From Branchiostoma floridae (Eukaryota; Chordata; Leptocardii; Amphioxiformes; Branchiostomatidae): DNA of 64,000 bases. The first letter of the stretch is position 1; each line of letters starts with the position of its first letter. The notes below the pieces were generated by a model. That model was not told the origin of the DNA and searched no databases. It saw only the letters and a list, made by a program, of their open reading frames with translations. Shown in pieces: positions 1,716 through 62,010 of the stretch. The position numbers and the translations under genes were made by a program. The DNA lies in contig NC_049979.1 in assembly GCF_000003815.2 (NCBI RefSeq), forward strand, positions 19,142,414 through 19,206,413, written 5' to 3'.

Positions 1716-3000
1716 TTAAGGCACAATCATAAGGAAGACCTGAACCACTATACCGGCAGTGTAGGGGTGAAAACTGAAATTATTACATCCATAACGTACA
1801 CATGTACTAGTATATGATAGTATAAAGTCTTTCTATTTTTAGATAATTGTACACAAATACTTTCAATTCAGCCTTTCAAGAATATATAATAATATATGAC
1901 TGTATATATATATATATATATACATCTCATCTATCATACATGTATGTTTGCTGTGAAGTATCTATTCCAGGTTAAAAAAAATGGACAGAAATTTGTTGCT
2001 ATTTGAGGTCTACTCCACTACATGTTTCTAATCTTAAAAATAAAGTAGGAAAAAGATTTAGACATACAAATACATGTACATGTACATCAGTTAGCTATAA
2101 TTATTATCTAGTATCTGGTTATCTATTACCATATAGCATGAACTGACCCTGCATCTAAATGCTGGGTGTTGTCATTTGGTTACCCAACATGTATGCAGGG
2201 AACTGAACTGAACAGAAGAACTTAATTGCATGACAATTGTACTGAACTCACCACAAGGTTTACAAATGTAAGTCTACTCTGTTACATGGTTATCAACAAA
2301 TGCATGAATTACTGGTTGTCATTCTTGAATAAAAATTCTTGCAAAGTTAGAAAAATATGTTCAGAATTTATTTTTGTGTTTTTTTCAGTTATGACCATGA
2401 TATTATGCCACCACTAATATGCATTTTCATTCTACAGTCTGAAGAAATAACTGTATGTTGTACTATCAGACATTTGGTTAACTATTTTATGGCAAATTTA
2501 TCCAGCTCCAACATTTAGTCTTGCCAAACTGCACACAGCTGCAGTGAGCTTCAATCATTACTATCATCAGGTTCTATGTTGTGTTTAATTATATGCTTTT
2601 CATTGCCTTAGGCAGTATTTGCACTTTGGGTCCTTAAACATCACAACTACCTGCTCAGGGGTCTCTGGGAGTTATAAATGATAAAGCAGACAAACTGTAA
2701 AATGTATTCGTGTTTGATAGATATCTAAGCCTCCCTATAAAAGAAAAATATTACAAAAATGAAAGTGAAACTACTATATTTTTCAGAGCTAAATGTACAT
2801 ATAAAAGAAAAATATTACAAAAATGAAAGTGAAACTACTATATTTTTCAGAGCTACATCACATAACCTCAACAGCAGTGCAAACTAACAATGATATTTCT
2901 ATTGACATAAATGCTTCATTTTATGTTTTGTTGACTTCAACTGTTTGGAATCTAATTTGAAGAAAAGGTACACGTCACCACCTGCTGCCCCCTGTACTGT
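1716..3000. other. Intergenic DNA with small repeats
   Basis: AT-rich spacer with no supported gene. It contains a (TA)n tract near 1901-1921 and a nearly exact tandem duplication at 2737-2860 (period 64 bp, first 54 bases identical). The right edge is the TACTGT flank of the foldback element. Confidence 0.6.
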
Positions 3001-3599
3001 GTTGGACGCCCGTTTGAGGCACTTGACATGGTCACGTAAAAAAAAGATTAAAAAATTGCGGTGGGCTCAATCAGGCTGTCAAAGGCGTCCTCGTAATCCC
3101 CACGAGTTGTTCTATCTGCCTTGTGAATCTCAAGCGATGGACTTTTACGAGAAAGTATATATTTGATGTCAAAGTTGACCGATTTTCGACAGCTTTTTCC
3201 TATGGTTTCGCCATTGTCTTCAAGCCGAAATACGCACCGTATGGGGGTTTCGGGGTGTCCGCTTAGTGGGCGAGGTTCAACTGTTTCCGGGTCACGCTAT
3301 ACCGTTGCGGCAGTCACTCGCGACCTCACTCGGTAGTGTACACAAGTACTTTTGATGGTGCTGTCAGCGTTTTTACGAAGTAATATTGAAATGTCTTTGA
3401 AGTATAAGACAGCACTATGATCTGTAAGGTGTTATTCCAATAGGTTGCGTCGTGGGTAAAGTGAACTGTAGGTAACGTTACCCGACGAGGGCTTTTCACG
3501 GCATCTGACTGTTAACTGTTGAAGATATTAGATACATTGCTCGCGCCTGGCTGAGGGATGAACTAAGATTAGAACAGTATATAGCTAATTAATAGCGAA

Positions 3600-5330
3600 A
3601 AACGTGTTCAGAAGAGAAACTGTGCCAATTTGAATGACACAAAAAATAGCGCCGTAAGAATTGTAACGTTGTATAGCTAACTTGTAGCGGAAAACGTGTT
3701 CAGAAGACAAACTGTGTCAATTTGAATGACACATCTAAAGGACCGTTGTGCGCTGCATTAAGTGTATATAGCTAACAAATAGCGAAAAACGTGTTCAGAA
3801 GAGAAACTGTGTCCATTTGAATGACAGACTTACAGAACAGTAAGAACTATAACGTTATGTAGCTACAATTGTAATAGCGCAAAACGTGTTCAGAAGACAA
3901 ACTGTGTCAATTTGAATGACACACTTGCAGATAGCGCAATAAGAACTGTACATAGCTAACTCCTAGCGGAAAAAGCGTTCAGGAGACAAACTGTGTCGAT
4001 TTGAATGACACACTTACAGGTAGCGCAATAAGAACTGTATATAGCAAACTAATAGCGTAAAAAGTGTTCAGGAGACAAACTGTGTCAATTTGAATGACAC
4101 ACTTGCTGATAGCGCAATAAGAAATGTACATAGCTAACTCATAGCGAAGTGTAACGTGTTCAGGAGACAAACTGTGTCAATTTGAATGACACACTTGCAG
4201 ATAGCGCAATAAGAACTGTATATAGCAAACTAATAGCGTAAAAAGTGTTCAGGACACAAGCTGTGTCAATTTGAATGACACACTTGCAGATAGCGCAATA
4301 AGAACTGTATATAGCAACCTAATAGCGGAAAAAGTGTTCAGAAGACAAACTGTGTCAATTTGAATGACACACTTGCAGATAGCGCAATAAGAACTGTACA
4401 TAGCTAACTCATAGCGAAGTGTAGTGTTCAGAAGAGAAACTGTGTCAATTTGAATGACACACTTGCAGATAGTGCAATAAGAAATGTACATAGCTAACTC
4501 ATAGCGAAGTGTAGTGTTCAGAAGAGAAACTGTGTCAATTTGAATGACACACTTGCAGATAGTGCAATAAGAACTGTATATAGCAAACTAATAGCGGAAA
4601 AAGTGTTCAGGAGACAAACTGTGTCAATTTGAATGACACACTCACAGGCAGCGCAATAAGAAATGTACATAGCTAACTCGTAGCGAAGTGTAGTGTTCAG
4701 AAGAGAAACTGTGTCAATTTTAATGACACACTTACAGAATAGCGCCAAAAAACTGTATATAGCTAACTTAAAGCATAAAGTGAGTTCAGAAGACTACCTG
4801 TGTCGATTTGAATGACACACCTATAGAATAGGCACGGTTAGAACATGTATATATATTTAACTAACAGCGCAACGTGTTCAAGAGACAAACTGTGTCAATT
4901 TGAATGACACATTATAGAACAGTACTGTAAGAACTTTATATAGCAAACTAATATCGAAAAACGTGTTCAGGAGACAAGCTGTGTCAATTTGAATGACACA
5001 CTTACAGAATAGCGCCGTTAAAACAGTATATAACTAACTTAAAGCGAAAAGTGTATTCAGTAGACTACCTGTGTCAATTTGAATGACAGATTTATAGAAA
5101 AGTGCTGTAAGAACTGTATATAGCGGAAAACGTGTTCAGGGGACAAACTGTGTCAATTTGCATGACATACTCACATTATAGCGCCGTAAAAACAGTAACG
5201 TTACATAGCTAACCAATTTAAAAAAAAACGTGTTAAGGATACAAAATGTGTCTGTGAATGACACATTCATAGAACAGCGAGGTAAATTTATTTTGACCAA
5301 AGCTTGCTCTAACAAAAACTTTTTCAATCA
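3600..5330 (+). repeat. Left satellite arm of the foldback element, ~90-bp units x ~19
   Basis: Each unit holds a dyad TGTGTCA-N7-TGACACA (spacer usually ATTTGAA), preceded by GTGTTCAGGAGACAAAC and followed by an AGCGC...AAGAACTGTATATAGC segment. Core positions recur near 3630, 3715, 3808, 3903, 3991, 4080, 4169, 4261, 4350, 4440, 4529, 4619, 4708, 4799, 4890, 4979, 5070, 5148 and 5247. Units at 3900-4740 are the most alike. Short open frames on the minus strand here are read through the repeat and are not genes. Confidence 0.93.
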
Positions 5331-5364
5331 GATGATCATACTATTTAATTATCGCTTTACTTTA

Positions 5365-8300
5365 CTTGTGTGTCATATGAATTGACACAGTTGCCCTCCT
5401 AACGAAGTTTTCTGTTGTAAAATGGTTATATGCAGTTCTTACAGCGCTTTTCTTTAGGTGTGTCATACAAATTGACACAGTTTTGTGTCCTGAACACATT
5501 AGCCGTTAAGATTTAGTCATACATTTGTATACTATACGTTCGGCGCTATTCTACAAATGTGTCGAAACAAATCGACACAGCTGTGCTTTTGACTACGTTT
5601 TCAGCAATAAAGTTGTTAGGTACAGCCCAAAGTACACTTTTTACCAGTGTGTCATATAAATTGACACAAATTCTTTACTGTCAAACTTTTTCCGTGATCA
5701 ATTTTACACACGTTAAACAGCGCTTTTCTCATTGTGGGTGATATAAATTGACACAGTTGTCCCCCGGAAAAACCTTTTCCATTTTTAAGACACGGTTCAA
5801 ACATCGCTTACAAAGGTGTCAGACAAATTCACACAATTTCCCTCCTGAAAAAGTCGTCCGCCATCAAGACAATTTTACACTGATTTCACATCGTGTTTCA
5901 TAGTGTGTCATATGAAATAACAGTTGTCCTCCTGACAAGGTTTTCTGTCATTTGATACAGTTATCGTCCTGACCGTGAGGGTTTTCCGTTTTGTGAAATT
6001 TTAATAAGTTTTAAAAAACTTGTTAATTGACACAGTTGTCGTCCCGACCAAGTCTTCCATCAGTTTAATACTGTTTAATCATCGCACTAGTGTGCCATAC
6101 TATCAGTGACAGTTGTCCACCAAAGTTTCCGTCATGAGGCAGTTTTATACTGTTTACCACTCGGTTATTAATTGCAAAGCCGTCCTCCTGACAAAGTTTT
6201 CTGTTATAAACTATTGTGTCAATTAATGTGACAAACTAACAAACTGAATAGATATACCTAAATCGTATAATCATTCGATTCAAAAAGTTTTCGGCAGAGC
6301 GAGTTTTCCGTCATAAGATAGTTATTATGCGTTTCAAAAGTGTGTCATACGATTGACACAGTTTTCAGCTCAGACAGCGCAGTACTAGATTTGACAGTTT
6401 ACTTGAACAAGTTAGTATTTCAGTTACTTTAAACCCTACCATGGTCCAAACTCCAGTAATCAGTTGTTAATTGATATGAAATAACCGCATCTAAAGTCAT
6501 ATATACGAAGAAACGCCATTTAGTTCGTAAGAAGGGACCTTAGAACTTGTCTGACACACTTGCAGAAAAGCGCTGCCTGAACCGCGCTATTATGTAAGTG
6601 TGTCATTCATATTGACACAGTTTGACTTCTGAACACGCATTAATATTCCGCTTTAAGTTAGCTATATACAGTTCTTACTACGCCATTATATAAGTGTGTC
6701 ATTCAAATTGACACAGTTTGTCTCCTGAACACGTATTTTGCTATTAGTTAGATATATTCAGTTCTTACGGCGCTATTATGTAAGTGTGTCATTCAAATTG
6801 ACACAGTTTGACTCCTGAACACCCTTTTTCGCTTTTTGTTAGCTATATACAGTTCATTCAGCTTTGTTCTGCAAGTGTGTCATTCAAATTGGCACAGTTT
6901 GACACCTGAATACGTTTTCCGCGATTTCTTAGCTATATACAGGTCTTACATTGCTGTTCTATAAAAAAAAGTGTGTCATTCAAAGTGACACATTTTGTGT
7001 CCTGAACACGTTTCTCGCTATTATTGAGCTATACACAGTTCTTACGGCGCTATTATGTCAGTGTGTCATTCAAATTGACATAGTTTGTCTCCTGAACACG
7101 TTTACGCTATTAGTTAGCTATATACAGTTCTTACGGCACTATTATGTAAATGTGTCATTCAAATTGACACAGTTTGACTCCTGAACACGTTTTCCGCTAT
7201 TAGTTAGCTGTATACAGTTCTTTTAGCTTTGTTCTATAAGTGTGTCATTCAAATTGACACAGTTTGACATTTGAACACGCATTCCGCTTTAAGTTACCTA
7301 TATACAGTTCTTACAGCGCTATTCTATAATGCATTGTGTCATTCAAATTGACGCAGTTTGTCTCCTGAACACGTTTTTCGCTATTGGTTAGCTATATACA
7401 ATTCTTACGGCAACATTATGTAAGTGTGTCATTCAAATTGACACAGTTGGACTCCTGAACACGTTTTTCGCTATTAGTTAGCTATATACATTTCAGCTTT
7501 GTTCTATAAGTGTGTCATTCAAAGTGACACAGTTGGACTCCTGAACACGCATTGCACTTTAAGTTACCTATATACAGTTTTTTTACAGCGCTGTTCTATG
7601 AATGCATCATTCAAATTGACACAGTTTGTCTCCTGAACACGTTTTTCGCTATTAGTTAGCTGTATACAGTTCATTCAGCTTTATTCTATAAGTGTGTCAT
7701 TCAAATTGACACAGTTTGTCTCCTGAATACGTTTTCGCTATTAGTTTGCTATATACAGTTCTTTGGGCGCTGTCTACAAGTGTGTCATTCAAATTGACAC
7801 AGATTGACACTTGAACACGCATTCCGCTTCAAGTTAACTATATACAGTTCTTACAGCGCTATTCTATAATGCATTGTGTCATTCAAATTGGCACAGTTTG
7901 TCTCCTGAACATGTTTTTCGCTCCTAGTTAGCTATATACAGTTCTTACGGCACTATCATGTAAGTGTGTCATTCAAATTGACACAGTTTGACTCCTGAAC
8001 ACGTTTTCCGCTATTAGTTAGCTATATACAGTTCTTTTAGCTTTGTTCTATAAGTGTGTCATTCAAATTGACACAGTTTGACACCTGAATACGTTTTCCG
8101 CGATTACTTAATAGCTATATACAGGTCTAACATCGTTGTTCTATAAATGTGTCATTCAAAGTGACACATTTTGTCTCCTGAACACGTTTCTCGCTATTTG
8201 TTAGTTACATACAGTTCTTACGGCGCTATGATGTAAGTGCGCCATTCAAATTGACATAGTTTGTCTCCTAAACACGTTTATCGCTATTAGTTAAGCTACA

Positions 8301-8460
8301 TACAGTTCTTACGGCGCTTATATTATGTAAGTGTGTCATTCAAATTGACACAGTTTGTCTCCCCAAGGAGGTCTCCCGAACACGTTTTCCGCTATTAGTT
8401 CCCTGTATACACTTCTTACAGCACTGTTCTATAAATGTGTTATTCAAATTAACACAGTTT
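5365..8460 (-). repeat. Right satellite arm of the foldback element, ~90-bp units x ~29
   Basis: The same unit as the left arm in reverse complement, reading TGTGTCATTCAAATTGACAC followed by AGTTTGTCTCCTGAACACG and TAGCTATATACAGTTCTTAC. Units at 6590-8460 are regular. Those at 5365-6400 are diverged, several with broken dyads. A piece near 6500-6545 (GGGACCTTA context) resembles the linker at 8478-8523, suggesting the arm was itself built from two blocks. Confidence 0.92.
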
Positions 8461-9005
8461 GTCTCCTGATGTCTACGAGAATGCCAGTTAATAGTTCGTT
8501 CGGATGGGACCTTACAACCGTTGCAGATTCGCAACGTGGGCCGAGACGATACGAACAAACACAAACTTAAAAAAACGTTCTGCAAGTTCAAACATACTTT
8601 CGCCAAGAGTCCCTTAACAAACCTAATTTAACAATATGCGTAAGCCTGACTTGAATCCTCCTCTACCGAACCAAGCGCAGACTGAGACCGTCAAGATACC
8701 TGGTGACCCGCGTTCAATGACCTCACTCGTACGACCCGGAAGTATATGATCGTAATCGGTTGCACGGAAACCCCCATGCAGTGCGAAATCGAGGCCGAAA
8801 ACAGGCATAAAGAGCCAGTTTGAAGGCTAACTTTGACTCTTCAAATCTCGTCCCGAAATAATATTTGAATCAAGACGAGTATTGTAGGCGATAGAACAAC
8901 TCGTGGGGATTACGTGGGCACCTTTGACAGCCTGATTTGGGCCACCGTGATTTTTTAATCTTTTTTTTACGCGACCATGTCAACTGCCTCAAACGGGCGT
9001 CCAAC

Positions 9006-9346
9006 ATACTGTATCATGCTACCATGTAAGAAAGTTCAAAGTTCATGGGATTGAACATTAACTGTATGGGTAAATACAGGACCACTAAGGTGACAAAACC
9101 ACAAAATTTGATGTGCTTTTAGTTTTTCCCACAATAATTGACATTTATACAATGTAATTCCTGCATAGAAAATGTATTTCTGTTGAGTTTTTCTTGCAAC
9201 ATGTAAAATGTAAAATTTTGCTCCACCTTGTACCCCCTAGAAAATAATGGATCCATTCTGTTTAGATTTGCTAAACAAAGACGTGAGGGACTTTCCAGGT
9301 AACCCGGACATTGGATTGAAGACAACAGTCTGCGTTGTGAAAAAAA
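9006..9346. other. Putative promoter and 5' region of the TPR-like gene
   Basis: Short AT-rich segment between the foldback element and the first coding exon. No clear TATA box or coding exon recognised; an upstream non-coding exon cannot be excluded. Confidence 0.35.
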
Positions 9347-10861
9347 ATGTTTCTTGAACTGCACATTTCTTGGTCTGATTTTCCAATCATCCTACTGCTG
9401 TTTATTTTCTTGTATGTTGTTGTGATTATACTGGTGGAAATAGCCCGCAGAGACCAGGTACATAAACATGAGGAATCAATGTACATATACGTGGTGTGTG
9501 TAAATTTGCGTATATGCACTGTGGCATTTGGCATAGGCAAAATGTAACTAATCTTTAGTCATGGAAAATGAGCATCTACGTGCTCTGTTACTATCCAAAA
9601 ATTCTAAATGGTCATAAAAGTATTGAAGTTGGCATGGTTAGATCAAGGAGGTTGAAAAACCTCCTTGGTTAGATGTTGTATTATATCATGCAAAATGTAT
9701 GTGACATGTTATGCATTGTTCAATTCCTTTCACTTTCAGGACAGTGAAAAGATATTGCAGAGTACCCCAAATGGAACCGTAAATGTTACAAATATTCAAG
9801 GAGATGGCAACATTAGTGTCAGTGCTGGTAGTTTTAGTAACATCAGCATTTCTACGTGTACATGTCCTCAAGTGGTGGAGAAACCACTTCCACGTACAGC
9901 AAGGCTGGACAACAATTGGCAGAAACTGTGCAGAAAGACATTAGACCTTCTGGGACAGCTGTCTGCAAATGGAGAGCTCAAGAAATGCAAGAGAAGCATT
10001 GATAGGCTGTTTCAGGCTATCCCAGATCCCGACTTCCGTGCTGCACTGTGGAACGCTGCTGCAATCAATTGCATCAACGGGGGGAAAATGGCAAGTGCAC
10101 ATGAAGCATTGCATCATGTAACAATGCTTCTTAACGAAACCAAGAACAGAACTGAGCATGAGCTACGTCGAGATTACTACAAGTCACTCATCTATCTGAG
10201 GGAGGAGAAATGCGACCAACTCTTTCAGGGTGTTGGTTTGACAACAGTGGCCTTACAGACGACAGAGCTGGTGCAGGTTGGATGCATAAGAGCCTGGTTA
10301 TGGATCAATCATGGCTGGTTCTACATCAAGATGGCCAATATGCAGCAGAATTGCTACAAGCAGACTGCGCTAATCAAAGATGCTGAAGAGTCCTTTGTGA
10401 GAGCTTCATGTATCGATGACTCCTGTCATGAAGAGGAAGAGTTCCCTGGTCAACTACAAGACAAGAGGACCAGGATCCGTCAGTGTGCCCTGATTGGTCG
10501 TGTCTACCTGCGGCTGAGATGTTGGCGCTCGGTATCGGTAGCAGAAAAGGATACCAAACAAGGAATCACAGATGGTATCCCTGAAGAAAACATCCAAGAG
10601 GCACAAAAGATCCTTGTTTCACTGAAGGACAGAGAGCCGTTGTGTGGTATATGTGAGGTTCTGTACCATCTGGCCAAGGCACATCTCTGTTACAGGTTCA
10701 AGCAATATCCAGAAGCCCTCAAGGAAGCTGAGGCAGCAAGAGACTTGGCAATACATGGACAATTTAAAAACTACATTGACATTGCAAAAAGCATTGTCAA
10801 GCTTTTTAGGCAGGCGGTAACTCGTACACGTACTTGTGGCTGGCATCTTCTACCAGCATAA
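9347..10861 (+). CDS. Membrane-anchored TPR-like protein, 2 exons, 410 aa
   Basis: Exon 1 is 9347-9457 (37 codons, donor GTACAT) and exon 2 is 9740-10861 (acceptor TTTCAG), joined in phase 0. Residues 12-31 are a strong hydrophobic segment followed by Arg residues, a single N-terminal membrane anchor. Residues 48-72 are rich in N, G, V, I and S (TVNVTNIQGDGNISVSAG), with N-glycosylation-type sequons at N48, N52 and N61. The rest (about 80-400) is helical with TPR-like spacing and many Cys residues; the final third matches the paralog at 1-400. I do not recognise a named orthologue. The GDGN segment recalls the G-x-x-N core of RHIM-type amyloid motifs, but the residues before it do not fit the classical order. 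AATAAA at 11471-11476 is a candidate polyadenylation signal. An upstream exon is possible. Confidence 0.8.
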
Positions 10862-27000: not shown

Positions 27001-30000
27001 CTACATCCTAAAAGAGTGGGACAGGAAAGCTTTTAGACAACAAGGTTATGACCACTCTAGACCAGATCATCTGGAACACCCACCCATTTTTCAAGTGCAG
27101 GACGGGCGTCCTGTAAATGGCAGTCTCCAGCACGTGTCCGAGGTCTGTGTTGTTGATGGTGACCCCGCCCACCGTGGGGGTGGCCTTCTGTCCCTTCTCA
27201 CACTCCTGCAGGTACAGCAGTGCCATGTCCCCTGAGTGTTCGTACAGACTGATGATCTCTTCCTCTCGCTCAGCCTGCTTCATTTTGCTAAACGTTTTTA
27301 GTGGAACCTTCTCCAAGCACATCGCTACAGAAAAGGAAGAAGATCAATCTATAATGTAGCTGTTTGGACCAAATAAAAACAATAAATACAATGCAATTGG
27401 TCTGCGAAGGATGGAAGGAGAGAGTAATGTTCATCTGTTCAATTGGATGATGATGATGAATTTGTCCGCAAATTTGACTGCAATATTGCATTGCAATTCA
27501 AGTTGTAACTTTCTAAATAGCTGTACGGCAGGTCTTCTTGCTTGTATGCTAATTGAACATCTACAATGTGTGAATGCGGATCACCTTTAAGTGCGTAAGC
27601 CTCAGCGATCAGTCTGAGTATCCTGTTGCTCTGTATGTTTGTGGAGAGTTCCTCCAGCCGACCCTTACAGAAGCAGCCCAGAGCTTCCTCGTAGTTCCCT
27701 GTGGCATAGTTCAGCTTTCCCTGCAGTAGTAAGATTTCCTCCGCCCACTTTTGCTGGGAAGGAGAACAACAAAAAATCGAAAGTTAACATTTGCAGGCAA
27801 ATGCAAGTTATCTAACTCCCATCCGTCCCAAAGGTAGCATTATGAGGCCTTTCCCTGCAGTAATGTAGTTCATCCCTAGTTTGTAGAACTGTTGCTTTAT
27901 GTACCGTCTCAAGAGACGACAAGAGCCGAAGAAGAAATCTACTTTGGAAATCACACTGGACATATTTTGTCAAAGGTTTAAAGGTTGTTTGGAGTTCAAT
28001 ATTCCATTTCCTCATAGCGCATCCATCACAATTGTTGTAGAGCAAACAGATTGGAGTATGACGGATGAATAATTGATCATTCCACATCTGCCAACTCTGT
28101 GTGATAATCAGTTCAATCACTACCAGGTCAGAGATTTCAAGGGAGGAAAATCATGTCCTAAAATAACACCACTCCTGGACACTAGGAGCGTCCCAATTTC
28201 CGTCTGAATGCACACAGACCAATCTTGCAAACACTGTTAGAAAATCAATACTGCATACTGGAGAGAAGCATGGGGAAGAGAGGAAATGGAAGACATGAGT
28301 AGAATACATCTGTTCCTTGAGACAGTTAGGTTAGGTATTTCATCTCACATAACAGTAGTGCAGGAAAGGTACATTATCTAAAAACCCACAGTTTGAGATG
28401 CAATCGTACCATAATAAGTTACAAGGCTACTGAGTGATTTGATGTACAAGTATTAGGATATATTTGGTTCAGTGCACAGATGTGGATATAGTTTCACTGT
28501 TATTGACATTGAATGTGCTAGTGGCCATTAATCACAAGGTGTTAGCTAATGTGTGACAATTAACATGCATGTAATCAACCTGCATGTGTACAAAAAAGTC
28601 AATGAAAAGAGACATATCTAAACTGATAACCCTCTATCTATTAGTATTACAGTTAAAGTTTTGCCCACTACTAGCACCTCCCTAACAGTAACACCTAGCA
28701 TTTCTGTATCTACTTGTTTGAAAACATAGCTCTTCAAGGATACACCAATTTGATTTGTTTGTTTTCAATCGAAAAAAACTTTGCTAGATTGCAAGGCAAA
28801 GGTATAAACAGACTCTGAAATGAAAGTCTGTAGTACAGACAGTTACTGATCCTGAGTAGTAGGGACAGGGAGTGAATGCACATGTAGTCAGAGTTAAGTT
28901 CTACAAACACTTCTCTACTTTTATATTGTAATCTTGTTGAACTTTTCATTTAAACTATCTGAAAACCAAGAAAATAATTGGCATGGCTTAAACAGTAGCA
29001 GAGATACTCTACCTTGTGTTCACCCTTGAGTGCATCGTTGAAGTGCCTCCTGGCCTCTGTTAAGGCTCGGCTGGCCTTGGCTATGTTCTCCTCCTTGGGA
29101 GGAACTTCTTGAAGGTGAAGTTCAAGCTTCGTTTCCCCGAGAACTAACTGGACCAGGGATTCTAAGGAACAGATTGCAATTTATAGGTGGTATATACATG
29201 AATTGTGTGTGTTTGATGAGGTGTAAAGGTGTCTGTAAATGGACACAAGGCTATACTGAAAAAAATCATTCATTGCACCTTTTAACGTTTTATGTTTTGT
29301 CAATACTAATGAAGGACATTTCCAGAGGGGCGGGATCCTAGGGATGTACCAGTCTAGGTTCTGGCCACTATGTCTGGTATTCAGAGAGACAGCAGCTTTA
29401 AGTTCAACAGTCATGCTGTCACATTTCCAAAATGTTGCCCTGCTGGGCAGTAATACATTTGTAGGCTTAAAACAAAACTTGCATGGGCCCTATGGGAATC
29501 CTTACAGCTCCTAGGCTACTCTTCAGTTCAGGTGATCCCCCAGTTGATTTTAATCCATACTTACGATGAAGGCTTCATCTACAGTGCGGTATGGAAGATA
29601 ATTTTTAATAATTCAACCAAAAGTAAATGTTCTACCTTACTAAAGCAAGTGTATCCGTTAACAGTTGTTGGTACAGGATGGTTAAACTCCAAAAGGTGAT
29701 CCCAACATCTACATTTGTAAATAAAATCATTATCTCAAAAGCTTTTCATACTCATCTCTGTATCCACTCTCCTTCATCTAAGAGAATTGAACATTTGTAT
29801 CAACCGTTTCTGACGCACAGATAGCTTAATGTTCTAATCCAAGCCTTGACTTGAGAGTAAATTGGGCACTTTGGGACACGAGATGCCACGGCCCAGCCAT
29901 TAGGCCTGAAGCAATAGACGAATTGGGATACTTAATGAAATCCCTCGACGATGGAAAAGTGTCAGCTAGAAGACCGTGAAATGCGTAACTGACACCTTAA

Positions 30001-42000: not shown

Positions 42001-45000
42001 GCAAACATGGCAAATATGGTTGGATGGGATACTGTTTAACTCTTCTTGTAGTCGGAAGCTCCCAAAAGAAACAAAATGTTCACAAAACATCTATGCTGTA
42101 GAATGGACCATGAAAGTTAGATCAAAAATATGTAACACTGAATTACAAAACTTTTACAATTAGTTAATATTTTCTCTCCTTTATAAACACTTCAGCTATA
42201 ATCAGACTACAGTGCATTCAATCAAGATTCTACATAAAGCAACAGGGTTTCTAACATGAAAAGATGCCACCTAGGCCATACCTCTGTTTCCACCTCAAGT
42301 ATGAGGTCCCCTGCTGAAGGGAGGTCCTTCCACCCCATGACCTCCACAGGTGTGCTGGGCGGGGCTTCCCTCACCTGCTGACCTGTCTCACCAAACATGG
42401 CTCGCACCTGTCAAAGGTGGGAGGTGAAGATGTTCAGTACATCTAAAAAAAAATAACACCATGGGATGTCTGCTGGACTGTCTACCTGGATATTGCTTGG
42501 GTGAATATGGACGGTGGCTAAAATCACAACCCACCCACCCTTTGCCTATTCACAAATACAAGAGGGACCCTGCCATACAGTTTAAAGGCTGTTTATTTCC
42601 TTTTGGACAGGACGTGATTCCCTGCCAATGCCAGGTTATTTTGGAGCTTGAGTGCACCCCCCCCCCACAGGTGACACTTACAAAATATTATGATCACATA
42701 CATGTAATTGCACATGGAAATGTAACACCCCAAGAGGCTGACCCTACCTTAGCCCAGGCTGTACCAGCCACCAGATAGCAGCCCCTCCGCAAGGTTCCTC
42801 TCTGGATCACAACAGTCGCTACGGACCTGCAAATATCATTATCTTAGATCTAAGATGAAATATGGCTTGATTTTATATGGGGAAGATAATTCATATTGAG
42901 AGCTAACCATCAGAATTTCCTATGAATATATCACCAGACAAATGGATAGAGTCGATTCCGAGACACCATGAGGGTTTTTAGACAATAATTGTAATAAGTT
43001 GGAATTATTTTGAATAGAAGAATATCTAAGCCCAAACAGTTATAATTTTTTCAAAAAAATTGATATGGAATTTTGAATCTATTTGAATTCTTTTGAATTC
43101 TTTGGAAACATTTTGAAAGAGATCACACGAAAATCTCTTTATTTACAATAATTTTCAAACATCTGCAGGATTCTTTCACTTTTAAAAATATTTACAAAAA
43201 ATGGTAAACCTTGCCAAATGGTAGAATTAATTTATTGCCCCATAAAAGTTAGCCCCTTTTGTCTGCCTGGTATATTTTTAGATTTCACTGGTGGGCACTG
43301 GTGGGTCCTTTGTGGTAGGCCATTGACATGACACCCAACCATACTTTGCGAGGATGTGTGAATTGCTTTCTTCCTAGCCCACTGACCCAATATTACAAAA
43401 AATGGTAGAAAATGGTAAATAACGGCAAAATGCTGTTACCATTGTTTACAAATTCTTAGAAGTATTCTGTTCCACATCGTGAATATTTCAAAGGTTTTAC
43501 AGACCGAGTAAAATATTAAGAAAGTTCAAATAGCATTAGAAATACTTCAAAAGTATAAAATCTCCTGGACATATAATTGAAAACAATTGAAAACGTATGT
43601 AAATGATGACAATAGCAACCCTCGCGGTGACTTGGAATCGGCTCTACTTCTTGATTTTGTAATGTTATTTGTAACAATCAATGTTACAATTACAATTACA
43701 ATGATGCTAATTCTTCACAAACTTGCTCACTCAATCACTGGTTTTATATCCAGAAAATAAGACAAAAACTCCCATACAATCCATTCCCCCTGTATAGGTA
43801 CTTGAGAAACATTATATATGTTTTCCCTGATGGTTATTTTAAATGATTTTTCCAATAGTTAACATACTGTTTTTGCTGGTGTGTTTTTCTTCTTTCTTCT
43901 TCATCTTGTATCAGGAAACAAACTTAGTCATTTTTCTACTACTAGTTAACTTACCCTCTGCCCTTGTCAGTTCGAGATTCGATGACCGTAGCCTCTACAG
44001 GGCCTTTGTTGTCACCTTTGACCTCCATGACCTCTGCTTGGGTCACTATGGCCTCAGCCAGTTCCGTCAAGCCTTGCCCCTGGACATGCGATAAATCAAC
44101 AAGTATGGTGTAAACATGAAGTATGAAAATCAACTCTTGATGCAGGGCCTCCTTTGTTTCAAGTGGCAGACTTTTATAAATGTAGGGTACCTGCAGGAAT
44201 GAACAGAGTTATATGTAAAAAGCATATCTTAATGTTTCAGGAATGCTATGAAATGATAATCACGACATTGGTATAATGAAAAAACAAAAAACACTTTTCT
44301 ATCTTCTTTTGTTATGAGATGTATGGATAAAAGGTATAACGAGGGCTTACCTTAAGAGCAGAAATCTTGACCGATTGTATGTCACCACCAAACTCCTCCA
44401 GCTCCATCCCATGGCTCAGCAACTCTCTCATCACAACCTCCTGTTGAACAGTCAACAGCAACATCATCTTACAAATGTACACATGAATGATGCACACTGA
44501 CAATAGGTAGATCTGAACTAAGTGGCTAAAAATGCTTCATGCTCTGACACCCCCATTATGTAATCAGGGCTCGAAATTCATTTTTGGGAATAGGTGCACT
44601 GGTGCACCCAAACTAGAAAATTGGGTGCACCAAAATATTTTTGGGTGCACCACATAAAATAAAGTAGAATATCAGAATAACATAATTGCAAACCTACTAA
44701 ATTAGTAATTTGAACAGTCCGGGAGCTCTTCAGAAATCGGAAGTACTATAACAGTCATTTTATTGTCTTTCTAACACACAGATGTCAAGAATATGGTGTT
44801 TACTTAGTATACTGACATCTTAACATGCATATGCCTATCAAAATAGTGCACCCACAGAAAAAAAAATTGGGTGCACGGCTCCAATTTTGGGTGCATCTGG
44901 GTGCACAAAACCCCAGTATTTCAAGCCCTGATCTGCTTCTCTCTTGCGCATCTGTTTCTCTCTTGCACACCGGTTTCTCCCTTGCACACCTGTTTCTCAA

Positions 45001-48000
45001 TCGCACACCAGTTTCTGTCTAGCGCACCTGCTTCTCTTTTGCACATCTGTTTCTCTTTTGTGCACCTGTTTCTCTCTTGTACACCTGTTTCTCTCTTGCG
45101 CACCTGTTCCTCTTTCGTACACTTGTTTCTCTCTTGCGCATCTGTTTCTCTCTTGTGCACCTGTTCCTCTCTTGCACATCTGTTTCTCTCTTGTGCATCT
45201 GTTTCTCTCTTGCGCTTCTGTTTCTCTTTTGCGCATCTGTTGCTCTCTTGGGCACCTGTTTCTCTCTTCCGCATCTGTTTCTCTCTTGCACATCTGTTTC
45301 GCTCTTGCGCATCTGTTTCTCTCTTGCGCATCTGTTTCTATTATGCGCATCTGTTTCTCTCTTGCGCATTTGTTTTTCTCTTGTGCATCTATTTCTATTT
45401 TGCGCATCTGTTTCTCTCTTGCGCACCTGTTTTTCTTTTGCGCATCTGTTTCTCTCTTGCGCATCTGTTCCTCTCTTGCGCATCTGTTTCTCTTTTGCGC
45501 ATCTGTTTCTCTCTTGCGCACCTGTTCCTCTCTTGCGCATCTGTTTCTCTCTTGCGCATCTGTTTCTCTTTTGCGCATCTGTTTCTCTCTTGTGCATCTA
45601 TTTCTCTCTTGCGCACCTGTTTCTCTTTTGCGCACCTGTTTCTCTCTTGCGCACCTTTTTCTTTTGCGCACCTGTTTCTCTCTTGCGCATCTGTTTCTCT
45701 CTTGCGCATCTGTTTCTCTCTTGCGCACCTGACTCTTTCATGCACCTGTTTCTCTTTTGCGCACCTGTTTCTGTCTAGCACACCTCCTTCTCTTTCGCGC
45801 ACCTGTTTCTCTCTTGTGCACCTGCTTCTCCCTTGTGCACCTGCTTCTCTCTTGCGCACCAGTTTCTCTCTCGCGCACCTATTTCTCTGTCGTGCACCTG
45901 TTTCTGTCGCGCACCTGTTTCTGTCGAGCATCTGCAGGGCCGAAATTTATTTTTAGGAATAGGTGCACCCAAACTAGAAAATTTTACTTACACATAAAAT
46001 AAAGAATATCAGAATAACATAACTGCAAACCTACTTATTATAATTAGTAATTTGAACGGAGCTCTTCAGAAATCGGAAAATTGGACAGTCATTTTATTAT
46101 CTATCTAACACATGGATGTCAAGAATATGGTGTTTACTTAGTATACTGACATCTTAACATACATAAGCCTATCAAAATATTTGGGTGCACCCTGTGCACC
46201 CACAGAAAAAAAATTGGGTGCACAGCTCCTATTTTGGGTGCACCTTGGTGCACAAAACCCCAGTATTTCGAGCCCTGGTAATTGATAAGTACAAATTACA
46301 TCAATTTCAGAGTGGTGTTTATGTTGACAGTAACATGAAGGTGTGACGGGTCGTTCAGTGTAATATATCATAACCAGCTGCTGCCGAGCTACCAGCCGGC
46401 GAAGCTGGTGTGTTACTCCAAAGGGTGGTTATACCGGCTATATAAATACAGATGTAACACTTTTCAACAGTGTATGGTGGTGCAGAGCTCTTAGTCTCAT
46501 AATGATAATGACAACATGTTAACGGAGGTATAATATTTCTGTAACTTACAGGGTCAGCATTCTTCTTGTCACACTTGTTGATGGCTACAATGATAGGAAC
46601 TGTGGAAAAACATAAAAACAAAGTGGTTGTAATCCATCCGGTAGAAATCTTCCGGAGCGGACTAAAGAAATACGGCTGGACTCCAGTCTATATTGTACAT
46701 GTACAAGGGATGAAAGGCTACCTTAATGACACATTATCAGTGTAGGATTTAATTTTGAAGTACATAATATTCAAGATGTACACAACACAAACCCATTTTT
46801 ACCGTTGGCAGCCTTGGCATGTTTTATTGACTCCAGAGTTTGTTCCATCACTCCGTCGTCAGCAGCAACCACCAGTACCACGATGTCTGTCACAAGAGCG
46901 CCGCGTGCTCTGAGCGCTGAGAACGCAGCGTGGCCGGGGGTGTCCAGGAATGTGATTCTCTCGCCCGTGGGAAGCTCAACTGTAAGAATAAACAAAATAT
47001 CTGTGTCACCTTTCACAGGGGCTATGGACACTGCAGGGATACGGGCACAAATTCAACAGGGTATCTGCTTTCATGTTATGCCAAAGATTATCATGAAAGA
47101 TTTGTCCATTTACAGAAATCCAGTCAAATATCAGGACAGAAATTTGGACAGAAATCCGAACAGAAATCCGGTCTGAAATCTGGACAGAAATCCGGATAGA
47201 GTTTCGGTCAGAAATCTGGACAGACCGCCGCTATGACTTTAAACAACAATTTGCATAAGAGCCCAACATACTTATAGAGAAGTGAAAGTAAAAAAGTGAA
47301 CCAGTGTACTTGGCTATAGAAACAAGTCATAGCAAAGCTGCATTGCATTATCAGCTATCAGAAAGCATTACACTTCGTCTCAAGTGTTATGCTTTGAGTT
47401 TGAACAAAAAGAGAGCATACAGATAGAGGGAGAGAGATAGCCATCTAGACAGAAAAAGCAAGAGAGGGAGGGAGTTATTTTTACAATTCTCAGTGCCCCA
47501 CCTGAAAAGGCCCCTATATGTTGTGTGATGCCTCCAGCCTCTCCAGCTGCTATGTGAGACTTTCTCAGGCTGTCCAGTAGGGTGGTCTTGCCGTGGTCAA
47601 CGTGCCCCATGATGGTCACCACGGGGGGACGTCTGACCAGTGCTGAGGGGTCCGGTGGAGGTCTGCAGAGGGGCATTTGTAAAGAAAAGCCATAGGGGTC
47701 AATATGAAACAAGCAAACTAAGCTTCAGTACTTATCTTTTTGCAATTAAGACCACACTGATTTCTTTGTTCTCAGATACACTGCTTTACTCTTCCTGAAA
47801 AAAATGTGTACAATCCAGGTATTTGAATCAACGTGAAAATGCTGGACTTAACCGTTGAAAAAGTCTCCTAATCACAGTTTATTCACTTCTCAACACTTTT
47901 TAAGTTGAAAATTAATTGTTTGCAATGTTAAGAAGCCTGGTGTGTTGACTTTGTGACTTTTGGACCATTGGATTCACAGCCAATCAGCTCTCTCATCCAT

Positions 48001-55128: not shown

Positions 55129-56470
55129 ATTCTTATTCAAAAGCGAATCAACATTTTCAAATATTTTGTTGGGCTAAAGGGTTCAGGTACAGGTTAATAT
55201 GTGTGGGTCTCTGATCTTTGCACAGGTCGGGCAAATGAGATCCACACGAATTCAAGGGACGTCGGTGGCTTTCACTGAAAGACTAGCTGTATCACTGAAG
55301 GGAAGGACATCCGTGTGCAAATTGCTACAAGGGGATCGAGGCTGAGAGCCATATGCAAAACCCGAAACAACGTCGACCGAAGGAGCAAGGCCATGAGAGG
55401 GAAATGCCAGACCGGCAGCAGAGCCGCGGGCGGCCAACCGATTGCGCTGCTTTTGAGGGAAAAACTGAGTGCAGTTAGAGAATTCATGGACTGACGTACA
55501 CGTACTATCTGCGTTATTTGACTTATACGAATACGTGTTGTCTAGTCTATTAGGTCATATTTAGTAATGTAAAAAATAATTCAATTCACCTAGACAACGA
55601 TGGATATACGAATGGTGGACATCCTAACCAAACGTATATGAAAACTTTATTGACACGACAAAAGTACAGCGACTTTCGTGAGGATTATAACAACTATTTA
55701 CAGTACAGCTAAGCAGACGTATATGCATATTTACAGATATGAATAAGTCAACATGCTGTTTCTAGCATTCCATTTACATAATTCGAACATTGCCTTCAAA
55801 TGTCTTGAGTTACAAACGAACTTTTACCAATCTAACGTTTGCGGGAGTTTCTTAACGATAAAAATACACGTCCGTGCAGCCGTTTACTTTTGGGTTGTAG
55901 CAGCCGTTTACTTTTGGGCTGTAGCAGCCTTTCACTCCGTCACTTACAAGAAGATACAACGCAACGTTTGCTAGATGTAATTAGTCTGTAGTATTGTACT
56001 ATGATTGTTATTCTTAAACAGTTATTCGTTTGATGACGTGAACTACAACAGACCGAGATGTACTTAGTCTAGTAATATGAGCGATATTGAATGATGTGTG
56101 TAGCTGTCTGTCAGGTAAGGCAGGATACAAAGACGAGAGATTTCAACGGCAGTTCAGGAGAGCAGACATTTGTCTAGTACTGAGACAGAATGTGAATACA
56201 AGAGATTTCTAAGGTAAGAGAGTTCAGTTCAGGAGAGGCAATAGAGAACTTCAGTTAAGGCCAAAGAGAGATAGCATTATTATGAAGTCTATTATATTGT
56301 TAAAAGTCTTCTGTACCCAGCGTGCGGAAATTCTTGTCTCTTCATTGTCATTTCTTTATCCTTCATGTGCTGATCTTCGAATTTCAGTTGGCAACTAAAG
56401 GAACCTGTATATATTTGTTACATGTCTAAGCCTCTGTCGTTGGGGATCTCGTCGTAACTTTCTTAACTTT
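55129..56470. other. Intergenic DNA, no gene recognised
   Basis: A somewhat GC-richer stretch at 55230-55490 has short open frames on both strands but no family features. Near 55878-55935 a 24-bp unit (CAGCCGTTTACTTTTGGG...) repeats about 2.5 times. Confidence 0.45.
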
Positions 56471-56980
56471 ACAACACACTAACCCTTCATGCTTGTGGCT
56501 CTTGCCGTCCTGCCGTTTCCGACAAGAGTACAAGATCATATTTCCTAACCATCCCATCCAATCCCTTCATACAACACACTAACCCTTCATGCTTGTGTCT
56601 CTTGCCGTCCTGCCGCTTCCGACAAGAGTACAAGATCCTATTTCCTAACCATCTCATCCAATCCCTTCATACAACACACTAACCCTTCATGCTTGTGTCT
56701 CTTGCCGTCCTGCCGCTTCCGACAAGAGTACAAGATCATATTTCCTAACCATCCCATCCAATCCCTTCATACAACACACTAACCCTTCGTGCTTGTGGTC
56801 TTGCCGTCCTGCCGTTTCCGACAAGACCACAAGATCACGTTTCCTAACCATCCAATTCCTTCATACAACACACTAAGCCTTCATGCTTGTGGCTCTTGCC
56901 GTCCTGTCGTTTCCGATGAGACCACAAGATCACGTTTCCTAGTCATCTCATAACTTCATACAACACACCAATCCGTCATA
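56471..56980. repeat. 100-bp tandem repeat, ~5 units
   Basis: ACAACACACTAACCCTTCAT recurs at 56471, 56571 and 56671; close variants start at 56771, 56865 and 56960. The first units have a period of exactly 100 bp and the later ones about 95. It lies about 0.4 kb upstream of PRORSD1. Confidence 0.93.
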
Positions 56981-57397: not shown

Positions 57398-60242
57398 ATG
57401 GCAGCGGGAGAGTTGGGAGGTAGAGCCGAGCTGGAGACCGAGCTGGAAAAACTCGGCATTCAAACGGAAACTATCGAACATCCGGAGGTAAGGACGATTT
57501 TTATATCATAGGGTGACAAAAGGAACGATTGTAGTGGTTGGGGTGACGAAATCATGGCGGGAAAGATTGATAAAAGGGTACGACAGCTGGGCGGTGCCGA
57601 ATTTCCATCCTGTTAGGGAGTGTGTCATCTGGAGCTGGTTATGTGTATGATTTGTTTACTCAGCTTGAAAATGTAGGTCAACCTGCATGCCTTAGCTTTT
57701 GTTAGCTCTGGGTGTCGTTGAACTTTCTGAAAATAGGTCGTCAGCGACAAATGTGGTACTAAAACGTATGTCTATGAAAAGGCTGAGCTGAAGATTTTTT
57801 TTACAATAAGTAACGGGAGGGGGCCATACTTCGACAGGGGTCCAAAGTTCGACAGGTTTTAAAAATCATTGTTGCGGAGAAATGCATAGAGGCCTGCACA
57901 TGAGAAGTACACTAGCTGTAGACTAAACCTTGTTGTAAATAACTACAAAGGCGGGGTATGTGTCGAAATTAGCAAGTCCCACAGATAACGATTGAAAAAC
58001 TTGCACAAGTTTGACGCCTTCCGTGCAAGTTGACGAGCGAACGTATCGAGACCATGGCCCGGGAAACTCTTGAATTATTCTTCGCAAAATACGACATGTG
58101 AAAAAATATCACCACACATAGAAATGATGTTTATTAGCCTTCCGAAAAATAATATCTGTGTTCTGTTCTGCCTTTAACTGGCTTGGATAAACGGAGCTAA
58201 AATGATGCCACAATGTTCAGCCAGTCGGGGCCCCGCCATTTTACTATCACGCACGCAGGCGGGCGAGCGATGCTCAACACGTTGAACTCAGTCAACCCGT
58301 CCGTAGAGCGACAAACATTCAAGAAAAATCGATCTCTACCGACTAAAAAATCCTGTAGCCGTTGCTGCTGCCAAAAGACAGGATGAAATGGCAATCAAGG
58401 AAGCCGAAAAGCGAAAATGCCGTCACAGTCCAACGTAACACTGCGCTGCCGTTTTGCGGCAAGTTGGTCTCACCGTGAGAGGTAAACGTTTTAACACACC
58501 GTATTTGAATAAGTCGCGTAATACAAAATATGACCCATATTTGGTACAAAAAAAATATAATGAAGACTTTTAGTGCTATTCTATTTGCATAAGTTGTTTA
58601 AAAATGCACGGCGATGGTCTGGTTGTTACTATGTCGGAGTTTGGACCCCTTTTTTGTGTTGGAACGTTCTGCTAGGACGCAAGCCGAAAACCTGCCGTAA
58701 GTTTCGTGCGCTGTCAAAGTACAGTGCGGAACGCTACTGTTAAATGAAATATATATCTGTACAGCTTCAATAACAGTTATATGGATGCATACAAGATCTT
58801 AACTTGTTTTTGATGAGTTCACTGTAAAATGTACATTGACAAAAGCCATGCGCATCCACTTAGAACGGGTGTCGAAGTATGGCCCCCTCCCGTTAATAAT
58901 CTAACGTTAGATTCTTTTGCACTAACGGGTTATGTTATGGATTTTTTTAACGGTATTGATACTGAGGAGGATGTTCCTGTCATAAGGGCTTCTTCATGCA
59001 CTATTGACAGGGATGGTTTGGAACCAATCAGAAACCAAGGAATGGCACCAATGATACTGATAGCTTACCACGATGATCCTGACGATGATCTTGTGAATAA
59101 CAACTTAATAACATCACATGATCTTGATCTTAACAATAACTTGTATCAACATTCCCAATTATAATCAACTGTTGAATGGATGTAACATTATATGGATTCC
59201 ATACTAATCACTGCATTTCTAGACTGTCAGACTTTTTCTATCAATAACACTTCTAGTGCACTATTGATCATGTTAACAGCCATTTGGAAATGCAGACATT
59301 TAAAAAAATGTCTTTATGTTGTTTACATTGTTTCAGGTATTAACAGTAGATGTGATGGTAAAGTATTACAAATGCATCACATGTATCAGGTGCACACACA
59401 TTAATTGTCCATTTCCCCCAGGTGTTCACAGTGGAGGAGATGATGAAGTATGTGTCACATGCACCAGGTGCTCACTCCAAGAACTTGTTCCTCAGAGACA
59501 AGAAGAAAAAGAACCTCTGGGTTTTGACTATTCTTCACAATAGACAGGTCAGTAATATAACTTATGTGGTGTAAAGTGTTACTCATCCTTATTTATGCAA
59601 TGTTGGCTCAGCTGTTCTGGGAAAGTAACACAACTGTATTTTTGGGACATTTTATGTCTCTTATGGCACTTTTCTGCACAGACAGTATAGTAGGTTTGAA
59701 CCTTTTAACTCATTTCTATATTTAGTTATTTATGTTTTTGTTCAATGGAAAAGACAGAACAGATAATTGTCTTTTTACAACTTTTTTCTTGCAAAACTAA
59801 ACTAGCATTTCTTTTTTTTACATGTATGAGAACTGAAAGAAATGCATATACATTGGGAGTAAAACAATACATTTAAAAGAGATAGATTACAGTATAAGAT
59901 GTCAATGTCATATTTTTGTGCTACATGCAGGTAAATCTAGGCTGGTTAGCCAAACAACTCGGTGCGGGATCTGGCGGCGTTCGCTTCGCTGATGAGTCCA
60001 TCATGCTGGAGAAACTGGGCGTCGGGCAAGGCTGCGTGACCCCTCTCGCGCTCTTCAATGACAAGAAGGGCGAGATCAAGTTCCTCCTGGATGCAGACAT
60101 CGCGGAGGGCAGTCACGAGAAGATTTTCTGCCACCCGATGACGAACGCTGCTTCCATGGGGATGTCTGTTCAGGACTTCCTCAAGTTTGTCAAGGCAACA
60201 GGACATGAACCTAAACTAATACAATTTGAACCACTAGTATGA
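57398..60242 (+). CDS. PRORSD1: Prolyl-tRNA synthetase-associated domain protein (YbaK/ProX family)
   Basis: Exons 57398-57487, 59422-59547 and 59931-60242 join in phase 0 to 175 residues, close to the known family length. The N-terminus MAAGELGGRAELETELEKLG leads into the conserved body: VFTVEEMMKYVSH, GAHSKNLFLRDKKKKNLWVL, then VNLGWLAKQLGAGSGGVRFA, a GQGCVTPLALFND block and FCHPMTNAASMGMSVQDFL. The K in SKNLFLRDKK and the GxxTPLAL motif match the INS/YbaK/ProX trans-editing fold, which hydrolyses mischarged aminoacyl-tRNA such as Ala-tRNAPro; activity of the animal protein is inferred. AATAAA at 60440-60445 is a good polyadenylation signal. Intron 1 contains a transposon. A decayed partial copy of exon 2 precedes the real exon 2. 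Confidence 0.97.
57813..58893. mobile_element. 1.1-kb non-autonomous element in PRORSD1 intron 1
   Basis: The left end ACGGGAGGGGGCCATACTTC and the right end are exact inverted copies for about 24 bp. TA stands on both sides (57811-57812 and 58894-58895). Subterminal GGGGTCCAAA at left and TTTGGACCCC at 58640 are also inverted. The interior lacks a transposase frame. Confidence 0.83.
59337..59403 (+). pseudogene. Decayed duplicate of PRORSD1 exon 2 start
   Basis: After TTTCAG, the bases at 59337-59400 align with the first part of exon 2 (59422-59485): VLTVDVMVKY versus VFTVEEMMKY, and CACATGTATCAGGTGC versus CACATGCACCAGGTGC. A stop codon (TAA) near 59401 and a frame shift make it non-coding. 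It lies directly upstream of the real exon. Confidence 0.65.
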
Positions 60243-61499: not shown

Positions 61500-62010
61500 G
61501 TACATACACACAGGTCCTAGAGCTCAACACTGTCCACACATGTAACCACACCTGTCCCTGGTGTTGAACACCACACACAGGTAAACACAGCTGTCCGTGG
61601 CACTGAACACCACACACAGGTAACTGCAGCTGTCCCTGGTGCTGAACACCACACACAGGCAAAGAGACCTGTCCCTGGTGCTGAACACAATCCACACACA
61701 GGTAGCCACATCTGTCCCTAGTATTGGGCATCATTAGCAAACAGGTAAACACACCTGTCCTTGGTGCTGAACATCATCCACACTAGTACAAGTAACCACA
61801 GCTGCCCCTAGTGCTGAACACTATCCACACAGGTAAGCAAAGCTGTATCTGGTGCAGAACACGAAACACACACGTGAACACATCTGGCCCTGGTGCTGAA
61901 CACCATCCACACACAGATACATGTACAAAGACATGTTGTTGGTTCTGAACACTTTCCAAACACGACTTAACATACCTGTCCTTGGTGCTGAACACGCGCA
62001 CGCACCTGCC
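61500..62010. repeat. Minisatellite, 39-48-bp units, ~11 copies
   Basis: Units read roughly CTGTCCCTGGTGCTGAACAC followed by a variable CACACACAGGTAAACA segment. Length varies from 39 to 48 bp. Open frames on the minus strand in this stretch reflect the repeat and show no protein family. Confidence 0.85.

Follow-up and report, generated by a model that had tools for sequence, protein, structure and literature searches.

What is the 6-kb block of inverted tandem repeats that lies near the start of a 64,000-nucleotide stretch of the lancelet (Branchiostoma floridae) genome, and what determines where it and its relatives have settled? The stretch, hereafter the window, covers positions 19,142,414–19,206,413 of contig NC_049979.1 on the forward strand. 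Window positions 3000–9006 are occupied by a single foldback element of 6,007 bp (T3000 to A9006). The paired ends of the element, its target-site duplications, the empty sites found for the copy on contig C139, the many copies and the lack of a coding frame in the 11 copies read show that it belongs to a non-autonomous family of cut-and-paste DNA transposons of foldback form. The best overall explanation, to which we assign a probability of about 0.78, is a foldback transposon that is moved by an integrase-class enzyme acting in trans and whose insertion is directed by a motif in the target DNA.

The element begins with TGTTGG and finishes with CCAACA. Its A-type terminal inverted repeat (TIR) of 122 bp (3000–3121, plus strand, starting TGTTGGACGCCC) is 91.7% identical to the B-type TIR of 121 bp (8886–9006, minus strand, finishing GGGCGTCCAACA). 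Next to these lie end-specific subterminal regions, on the A side at 3122–3571 (plus) and on the B side at 8471–8885 (minus), which share only a 19-bp match past the TIR. The interior is made up of a forward array of a ~90-bp unit (3572–5283, plus; 19 units by profile), a 1.35-kb central block of decayed, mainly reverse units with no long open frame (5249–6599), and a reverse array (6584–8470, minus; 21 dyads). The unit carries a 21-bp dyad, TGTGTCAATTTGAATGACACA, which is found 47 times in the element with up to 7 mismatches (18 forward at 3621–5149, 21 reverse at 6599–8436 and 8 degenerate between them) and 45 times with up to 5, close to the ~48 units estimated in a first-pass annotation of the window. 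With up to 3 mismatches, 42 dyads are present in the element, as against one in the remaining window and none in five element shuffles together. The foldback architecture with opposed arrays described in that annotation is correct, except that the orientation switches at ~5.3 kb and not mid-element. Its inverted ends, read from GTTGG over ~115 bp, are likewise real; they reach one base further out on each side and extend to 122 and 121 bp. The flanking repeat that it gave as TACTGT on both sides is TACTG, of 5 bp (2995–2999 and 9007–9011): the left TACTGT was too long because the element’s own first T had been counted in.

The host genome searched comprises 431 contigs with a total of 513,431,437 bases. 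A search with the terminal 21 bases of the element, allowing up to 2 mismatches, gives 68 matches, 34 forward and 34 reverse, and a backward control gives none. When paired by eye, 58 of the 68 termini form 29 inward-facing pairs, 3.9–17.2 kb apart and distributed across 19 contigs, so that the ends do occur together elsewhere, as the first-pass annotation had proposed to check. The remaining 10 termini are single, one of them (C9:913436) being part of another repeat. Ten copies besides that of the window were read whole or nearly so, six with runs of N and one (L031), on a small contig, continuing on the far side of a gap. In all 11 copies, an A end is paired with a B end; the two have the 122-bp repeat in common and differ in the sequence beyond it. 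A ends are 92–99% alike over 413–608 bp, and B ends 91–99% over about 600 bp, with 87–94% over 290–399 bp for the B end of L041. The central block recurs in 8 of the 10 other copies at 95–99% over the aligned part (partial in some), is weak in L041 (77%, 393 bp) and yields no match of 250 bp in L039. There are 24–76 dyads per copy, the highest figure including sequence past the L031 gap, and 20 in one copy that is more than half N. The copies differ far more in unit number than in their ends, a pattern that would be expected if the arrays undergo unequal exchange or slippage. Runs of N aside, the only open frame of at least 130 codons in the 11 copies is one of 147 codons in an apparent insert. 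The first base of the contig carrying L031 (C341, 13.8 kb) is also that of a foldback end; the contig contains two copies joined across a run of N, and is probably an assembly repeat contig.

Both flanks are available for 28 of the 29 pairs, the 29th beginning at a contig edge. The element is bounded by an exact duplication of 4 bp, the family’s usual size, in 19 of these 28, of 5 bp in two (TACTG in the window and TGTCC) and of 6 bp in none; with shuffled partners, 0.84 exact 4-bp and 0.07 exact 5-bp duplications would be expected. Starting at its third or fourth base, the right flank of the C139 copy has five matches elsewhere in the genome. All five paralogues continue unbroken through the junction and hold the 4-bp target once (ACAG in four, ACTG in one; ATAG in the occupied copy), and the boundaries are therefore right for the C139 copy and, by likeness, for the family. 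A 28-mer that includes the dyad matches the genome exactly at 359 places. The first 100 (contigs C1–C7) were inspected by eye: 74 fall within paired copies, and the other 26 are located inward of a single end, at most ~6 kb from it; all are thus associated with elements and, as far as this list goes, the unit is not a free satellite. The first-pass view of a single mobile element, as opposed to a simple satellite, is borne out by the 29 inverted pairs, the exact 4–5-bp duplications in 21 of 28 and the five empty paralogues.

Outside the duplication, the target DNA carries a motif at a fixed distance. Counted outward from the element edge, the 63 flanks taken without selection (56 from pairs and 7 of the 10 single ends) show a base preference at positions 15–18 (G 32, C 36, C 37, A 36). 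In 22 of the 56 paired flanks, the tetramer CCAT begins at position 16; these flanks belong to 22 different elements of the 28, never to both sides of one, and at any other outward position CCAT begins in at most one flank. The number expected at position 16 is 0.22 flanks (p = 2.6 × 10^−38), and the excess survives correction for ~24,000 choices of position, tetramer and strand. The tetramer sits within GCCGCCATnTTG, a motif of the YY1 type, the first base of which is position 12, leaving the element edge 11 bp before the motif. The logo at positions 12–24 reads GCCGCCAT(G/T)TT(G/T)G for the 22 elements that score at least 6 in register (6 of 28 dropped). According to the available part of PMC7481187, the YY1 site is GCCATCTTG, in JASPAR form CGCCATNTT, and is bound by lancelet YY1; the match of the logo to these forms identifies the motif as YY1-type. 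Of the 21 elements that have an exact duplication, 19 show the motif in register. It lies on the A side in 8 elements and on the B side in 14, with no significant bias (p = 0.29); of two sites that were tied, C17:9083747 (tied by TIR score) would move to the B side if judged by its subterminal region, and C13:1931971 is B by end comparison. Insertion is aimed at a fixed register beside GCCGCCATnTTG, which is almost certainly a real target determinant.

The motif stretch preceded insertion at the C139 site, being present in the paralogues that lack the element: the occupied copy reads AGCCAT, and the empty paralogues AGCCGT (four) or AGCTGT (one). Beside the window element, the motif has the weak form GCTACCATGTAA (9018–9029, plus; CCAT at outward positions 16–19, window 9022–9025). 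The right flank, from its 14th base onward, has a paralogous counterpart 9 kb ahead of the element, at C1:19136202, in which TACCATGT is retained (alignment TACCATGTATGAAAGTTCAAAGTTCA versus TACCATGTAAGAAAGTTCAAAGTTCA); stops are present in all three forward frames of both sequences.

A number of observations weigh against this account. Seven of the 28 pairs are without an exact 4–5-bp duplication, and the first-pass proposal to test the boundaries on empty sites, which succeeded with paralogues of the C139 copy, gave no empty allele for the window copy’s own site in the assembly. Six of the 28 elements do not have CCAT in exact register. At C12:4552248 it is off by one base; at C16:19073222 a perfect motif stands five bases nearer, beside an altered terminus; at C2:27199411 a motif with 10 of 11 positions is found at position 30, far from register; C8:3365509 has CCAC instead; and C6:24893249 and C8:23601481 show no convincing motif. 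Among the seven single ends scored, three have 10–11 of the 11 motif positions in register and four have 3–4, and the window’s own motif reaches 7 of 11. The expectation for CCAT was taken from the rest of the window, and the register was scored on this family only. The contrast of CCAT and CCGT at C139 would be consistent with a requirement for CCAT, but this is a single case, and a CpG mutation after insertion would look alike. Proteins other than YY1 could read the motif, the match to YY1 being one of sequence. Finally, we infer the class and source of the enzyme because no transposase gene was found.

In the proposed mechanism, a transposase acting in trans would bind to the ends with the help of the arrays; after cutting at TGT/ACA, it would insert the element next to a protein on GCCGCCATnTTG, with a stagger of 4–5 bp. 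The ends and duplications suggest that the mover is probably a DDE transposase of the integrase class, joining TGT...ACA ends with a stagger of that size. The chances are about even that YY1, or a zinc-finger protein of like specificity, docks the transposition complex when bound to the motif; retroviral integrases, for their part, reportedly bind YY1. A more tentative proposal is that the family may use the host factor YY1 as an address: YY1 on GCCGCCATnTTG would dock the complex, insertion would take place 11 bp away, and new copies would come to lie beside YY1-controlled regulatory DNA.

Among the other explanations, the one that survives best, and one that we consider possible if somewhat doubtful, is that the family is a non-autonomous member of Ginger, a gypsy-integrase-related group, moved by a lancelet Ginger transposase. 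TGTNR termini (63 of 68 here, in a list selected by likeness to TGTTGGACGCC), duplications of 4 bp, or 5 bp in TDD-4 and TDD-5 (19 of 28 and 2 of 28 here), and TIRs of ~40–270 bp, a range that includes the 122 bp found here, are all features of Ginger1 and Ginger2/Tdd in the available part of their published description, which reports both groups from B. floridae (PMC2836005). However, none of the 21 exact duplications, inspected by eye, is CCGG, CCGT or ACGG as in Ginger1, or TATA as would result from the RTATAY target of Ginger2, and the family is not filed under Ginger for this reason. In addition, no transposase has been linked to these ends, the lancelet family has no coding sequence, and that part of the description mentions no foldback form.

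It is unlikely that the transposase’s own DNA-binding domain reads GCCGCCATnTTG, with the likeness to YY1 a coincidence or mimicry. The fixed spacing of about one helical turn would suit a docked partner and an added domain alike, but the motif matches a long host site and no transposase is known. Less likely still is that the element prefers promoters or open chromatin, in which YY1-type motifs stand at set places, so that the motif comes along without being read by anything at insertion. YY1 motifs cluster near start sites in animals, and the window’s copy lies just ahead of a stretch conserved in a paralogous region that overlaps an open frame; yet in 22 of 28 elements the motif is in register to the base, with no smear nearby, whereas a preference for accessibility should scatter. 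A Mutator- or P-type foldback such as Tetris or Galileo is highly improbable. It would have the same body plan of inverted arms with tandem repeats, Tetris also has no coding frame, and most foldbacks are said to be Mutator in the available part of PMC4079207, in which they are mainly assigned to Mutator-type transposases; the duplications, by contrast, have an exact length of 4 or 5 bp in 21 of 28 elements and of 6 bp in none, as against the 8–10 bp of Tetris and of Mutator-type foldbacks. A local satellite inverted in place and never mobile, which the unit arrays taken by themselves would resemble, can be dismissed in view of the shared ends, the duplications, the empty sites, the spread over 19 contigs and the position of all listed 28-mer matches (100 of 359) in or inward of element ends.

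The arrays of the foldback transposon carry a conserved sequence, the dyad. With units registered on the 3′ flank alone (n = 373, none dropped afterwards), its arms are conserved at 88% and its spacer at 92%, compared with 72% across the preceding 30 bases and 80% across the 15 closest to it; no other part of the unit is as well conserved as the 21-bp dyad, even with registration on the flanks. A hairpin was considered and rejected: among units registered on the 5′ flank (450 counted, after the omission of 27 out of 477 that had at least 11 mismatches), there are 289 one-sided and no two-sided changes, and the 7-bp spacer is conserved like the arms. What seems conserved is therefore the sequence and not the pairing. 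One two-sided variant, TGTGTCG...CGACACA with an 8-bp spacer, was seen by eye at window 5558–5579. The dyad probably represents a 21-bp protein-binding site, which fits it better than a hairpin, and it is plausible that the tens of dyads in the arrays are docking sites for the transposase or a host protein. Units are on average 82–87% similar; adjacent units are slightly more alike than distant ones, and third neighbours the most alike. No similarity was found that would derive the unit from the subterminal regions.

An autonomous relative with the same ends, which the first-pass annotation had suggested looking for, was not found by scanning the end loci for dyads or by an end search with 3 mismatches, and no search by transposase family was made. 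Dyads are present within the first ~1.6 kb in 26 of 30 end loci. Two of the other four, L024 and L030, were rejected as autonomous copies, since they contain a nested transposon and a nested long interspersed nuclear element (LINE), respectively, beyond which the arrays resume; L026 and L028 are mostly N. Eight further end loci have dyads in seven cases, the eighth (L068) leading to a different repeat with a diverged B end. Allowing 3 mismatches in the end search added 3 places, versus 5 for the control.

The nested transposon, which we take to be ISL2EU-like, occupies L024 from ~1705 to its end and L042:1–6081 (the C12 copy), and matches DDE_Tnp_4, HTH_Tnp_4, THAP and YqaJ, with a PHD match just below the cut-off. 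The nested LINE occupies L030 from ~2020 to its end and L043:1–2733 (the C16 copy) and encodes a reverse transcriptase (RVT_1). A repeat of ~1.95 kb, 99% alike in L072:454–2407, L073:457–2408 and L074:450–2412, contains a foldback B end in diverged form (86% over 372 bp); its own ends appear Helitron-like by eye, and in the search with this B end 40 of 192 first-look candidates were scored.

Elsewhere in the window, a perfect 64-bp tandem duplication (1.9 copies; 2736–2855) lies ~140 bp from the element’s left end. Downstream of the element, a 401-codon open frame (9656–10861) matches no Pfam family above the cut-off, with only a weak TPR-like score; a diverged copy of the region lies on the contig ~15 kb farther upstream. 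Open frames at 27439–27783, 47380–47724 and 59898–60242 match TTC7_N, GTP_EFTU and tRNA_edit and are probably exons. A 19-bp minisatellite of ~52 copies (44933–45922) is open in several frames across hundreds of codons, and a 100-bp unit is repeated 4.8 times with a 92% match at 56470–56941. The only Rfam match at the gathering threshold, to mir-2060, presumably a lancelet family, is on the minus strand at 61831–61922 and overlaps a 39-bp tandem array (61522–61913).

The body plan of the element is that of the known foldback kind with array-filled arms, as in Tetris and Galileo: long inverted arms of tandem repeats enclose a middle block (not seen in one of the ten other copies), there is no transposase gene, and several dispersed copies have target duplications. 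Tetris, from Drosophila virilis, similarly has inverted arms of tandem repeats (~220 bp) and, according to the available part of the account (PMC4079207), is apparently non-autonomous, with its transposase not found. In contrast to the lancelet family, Tetris has duplications of 8–10 bp, its repeats occur also in longer satellite arrays (the units here stay with the element among the matches listed), and that part describes no phased target motif. Galileo, in Drosophila, has foldback-like long TIRs with tandem repeats containing several transposase (THAP) binding sites in the portion of its description available; unlike the lancelet family, it belongs to the P superfamily and has a known transposase. 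ProtoRAG is also a lancelet transposon tied to YY1, and the available part of its report places GCCATCTTG, bound by lancelet YY1, in its TIR (PMC7481187); the YY1 site is thus inside the ends of ProtoRAG, and in the target DNA here.

Integration at a set distance from a DNA-bound host factor is a property of the retroelements Ty3 and Tf1, in contrast to which the present family is a DNA element with a presumed YY1-like factor. We know of no foldback with a defined host-factor target. In a literature search, the titles and abstract openings listed gave no description of this element, of a DNA transposon phased to YY1 sites, or of a foldback combining TGTNR ends, a 4-bp duplication and a phased YY1-type target; at the fixed offset that guidance by YY1 would entail, the motif is present in 22 of 28 elements. 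If the proposed explanation is true, the family would offer a rare natural example of a DNA transposon whose insertion is addressed by a transcription factor. The way in which transposons pick regulatory DNA would then become directly testable in a chordate, starting from a list of 28 sites and a candidate for the host partner.

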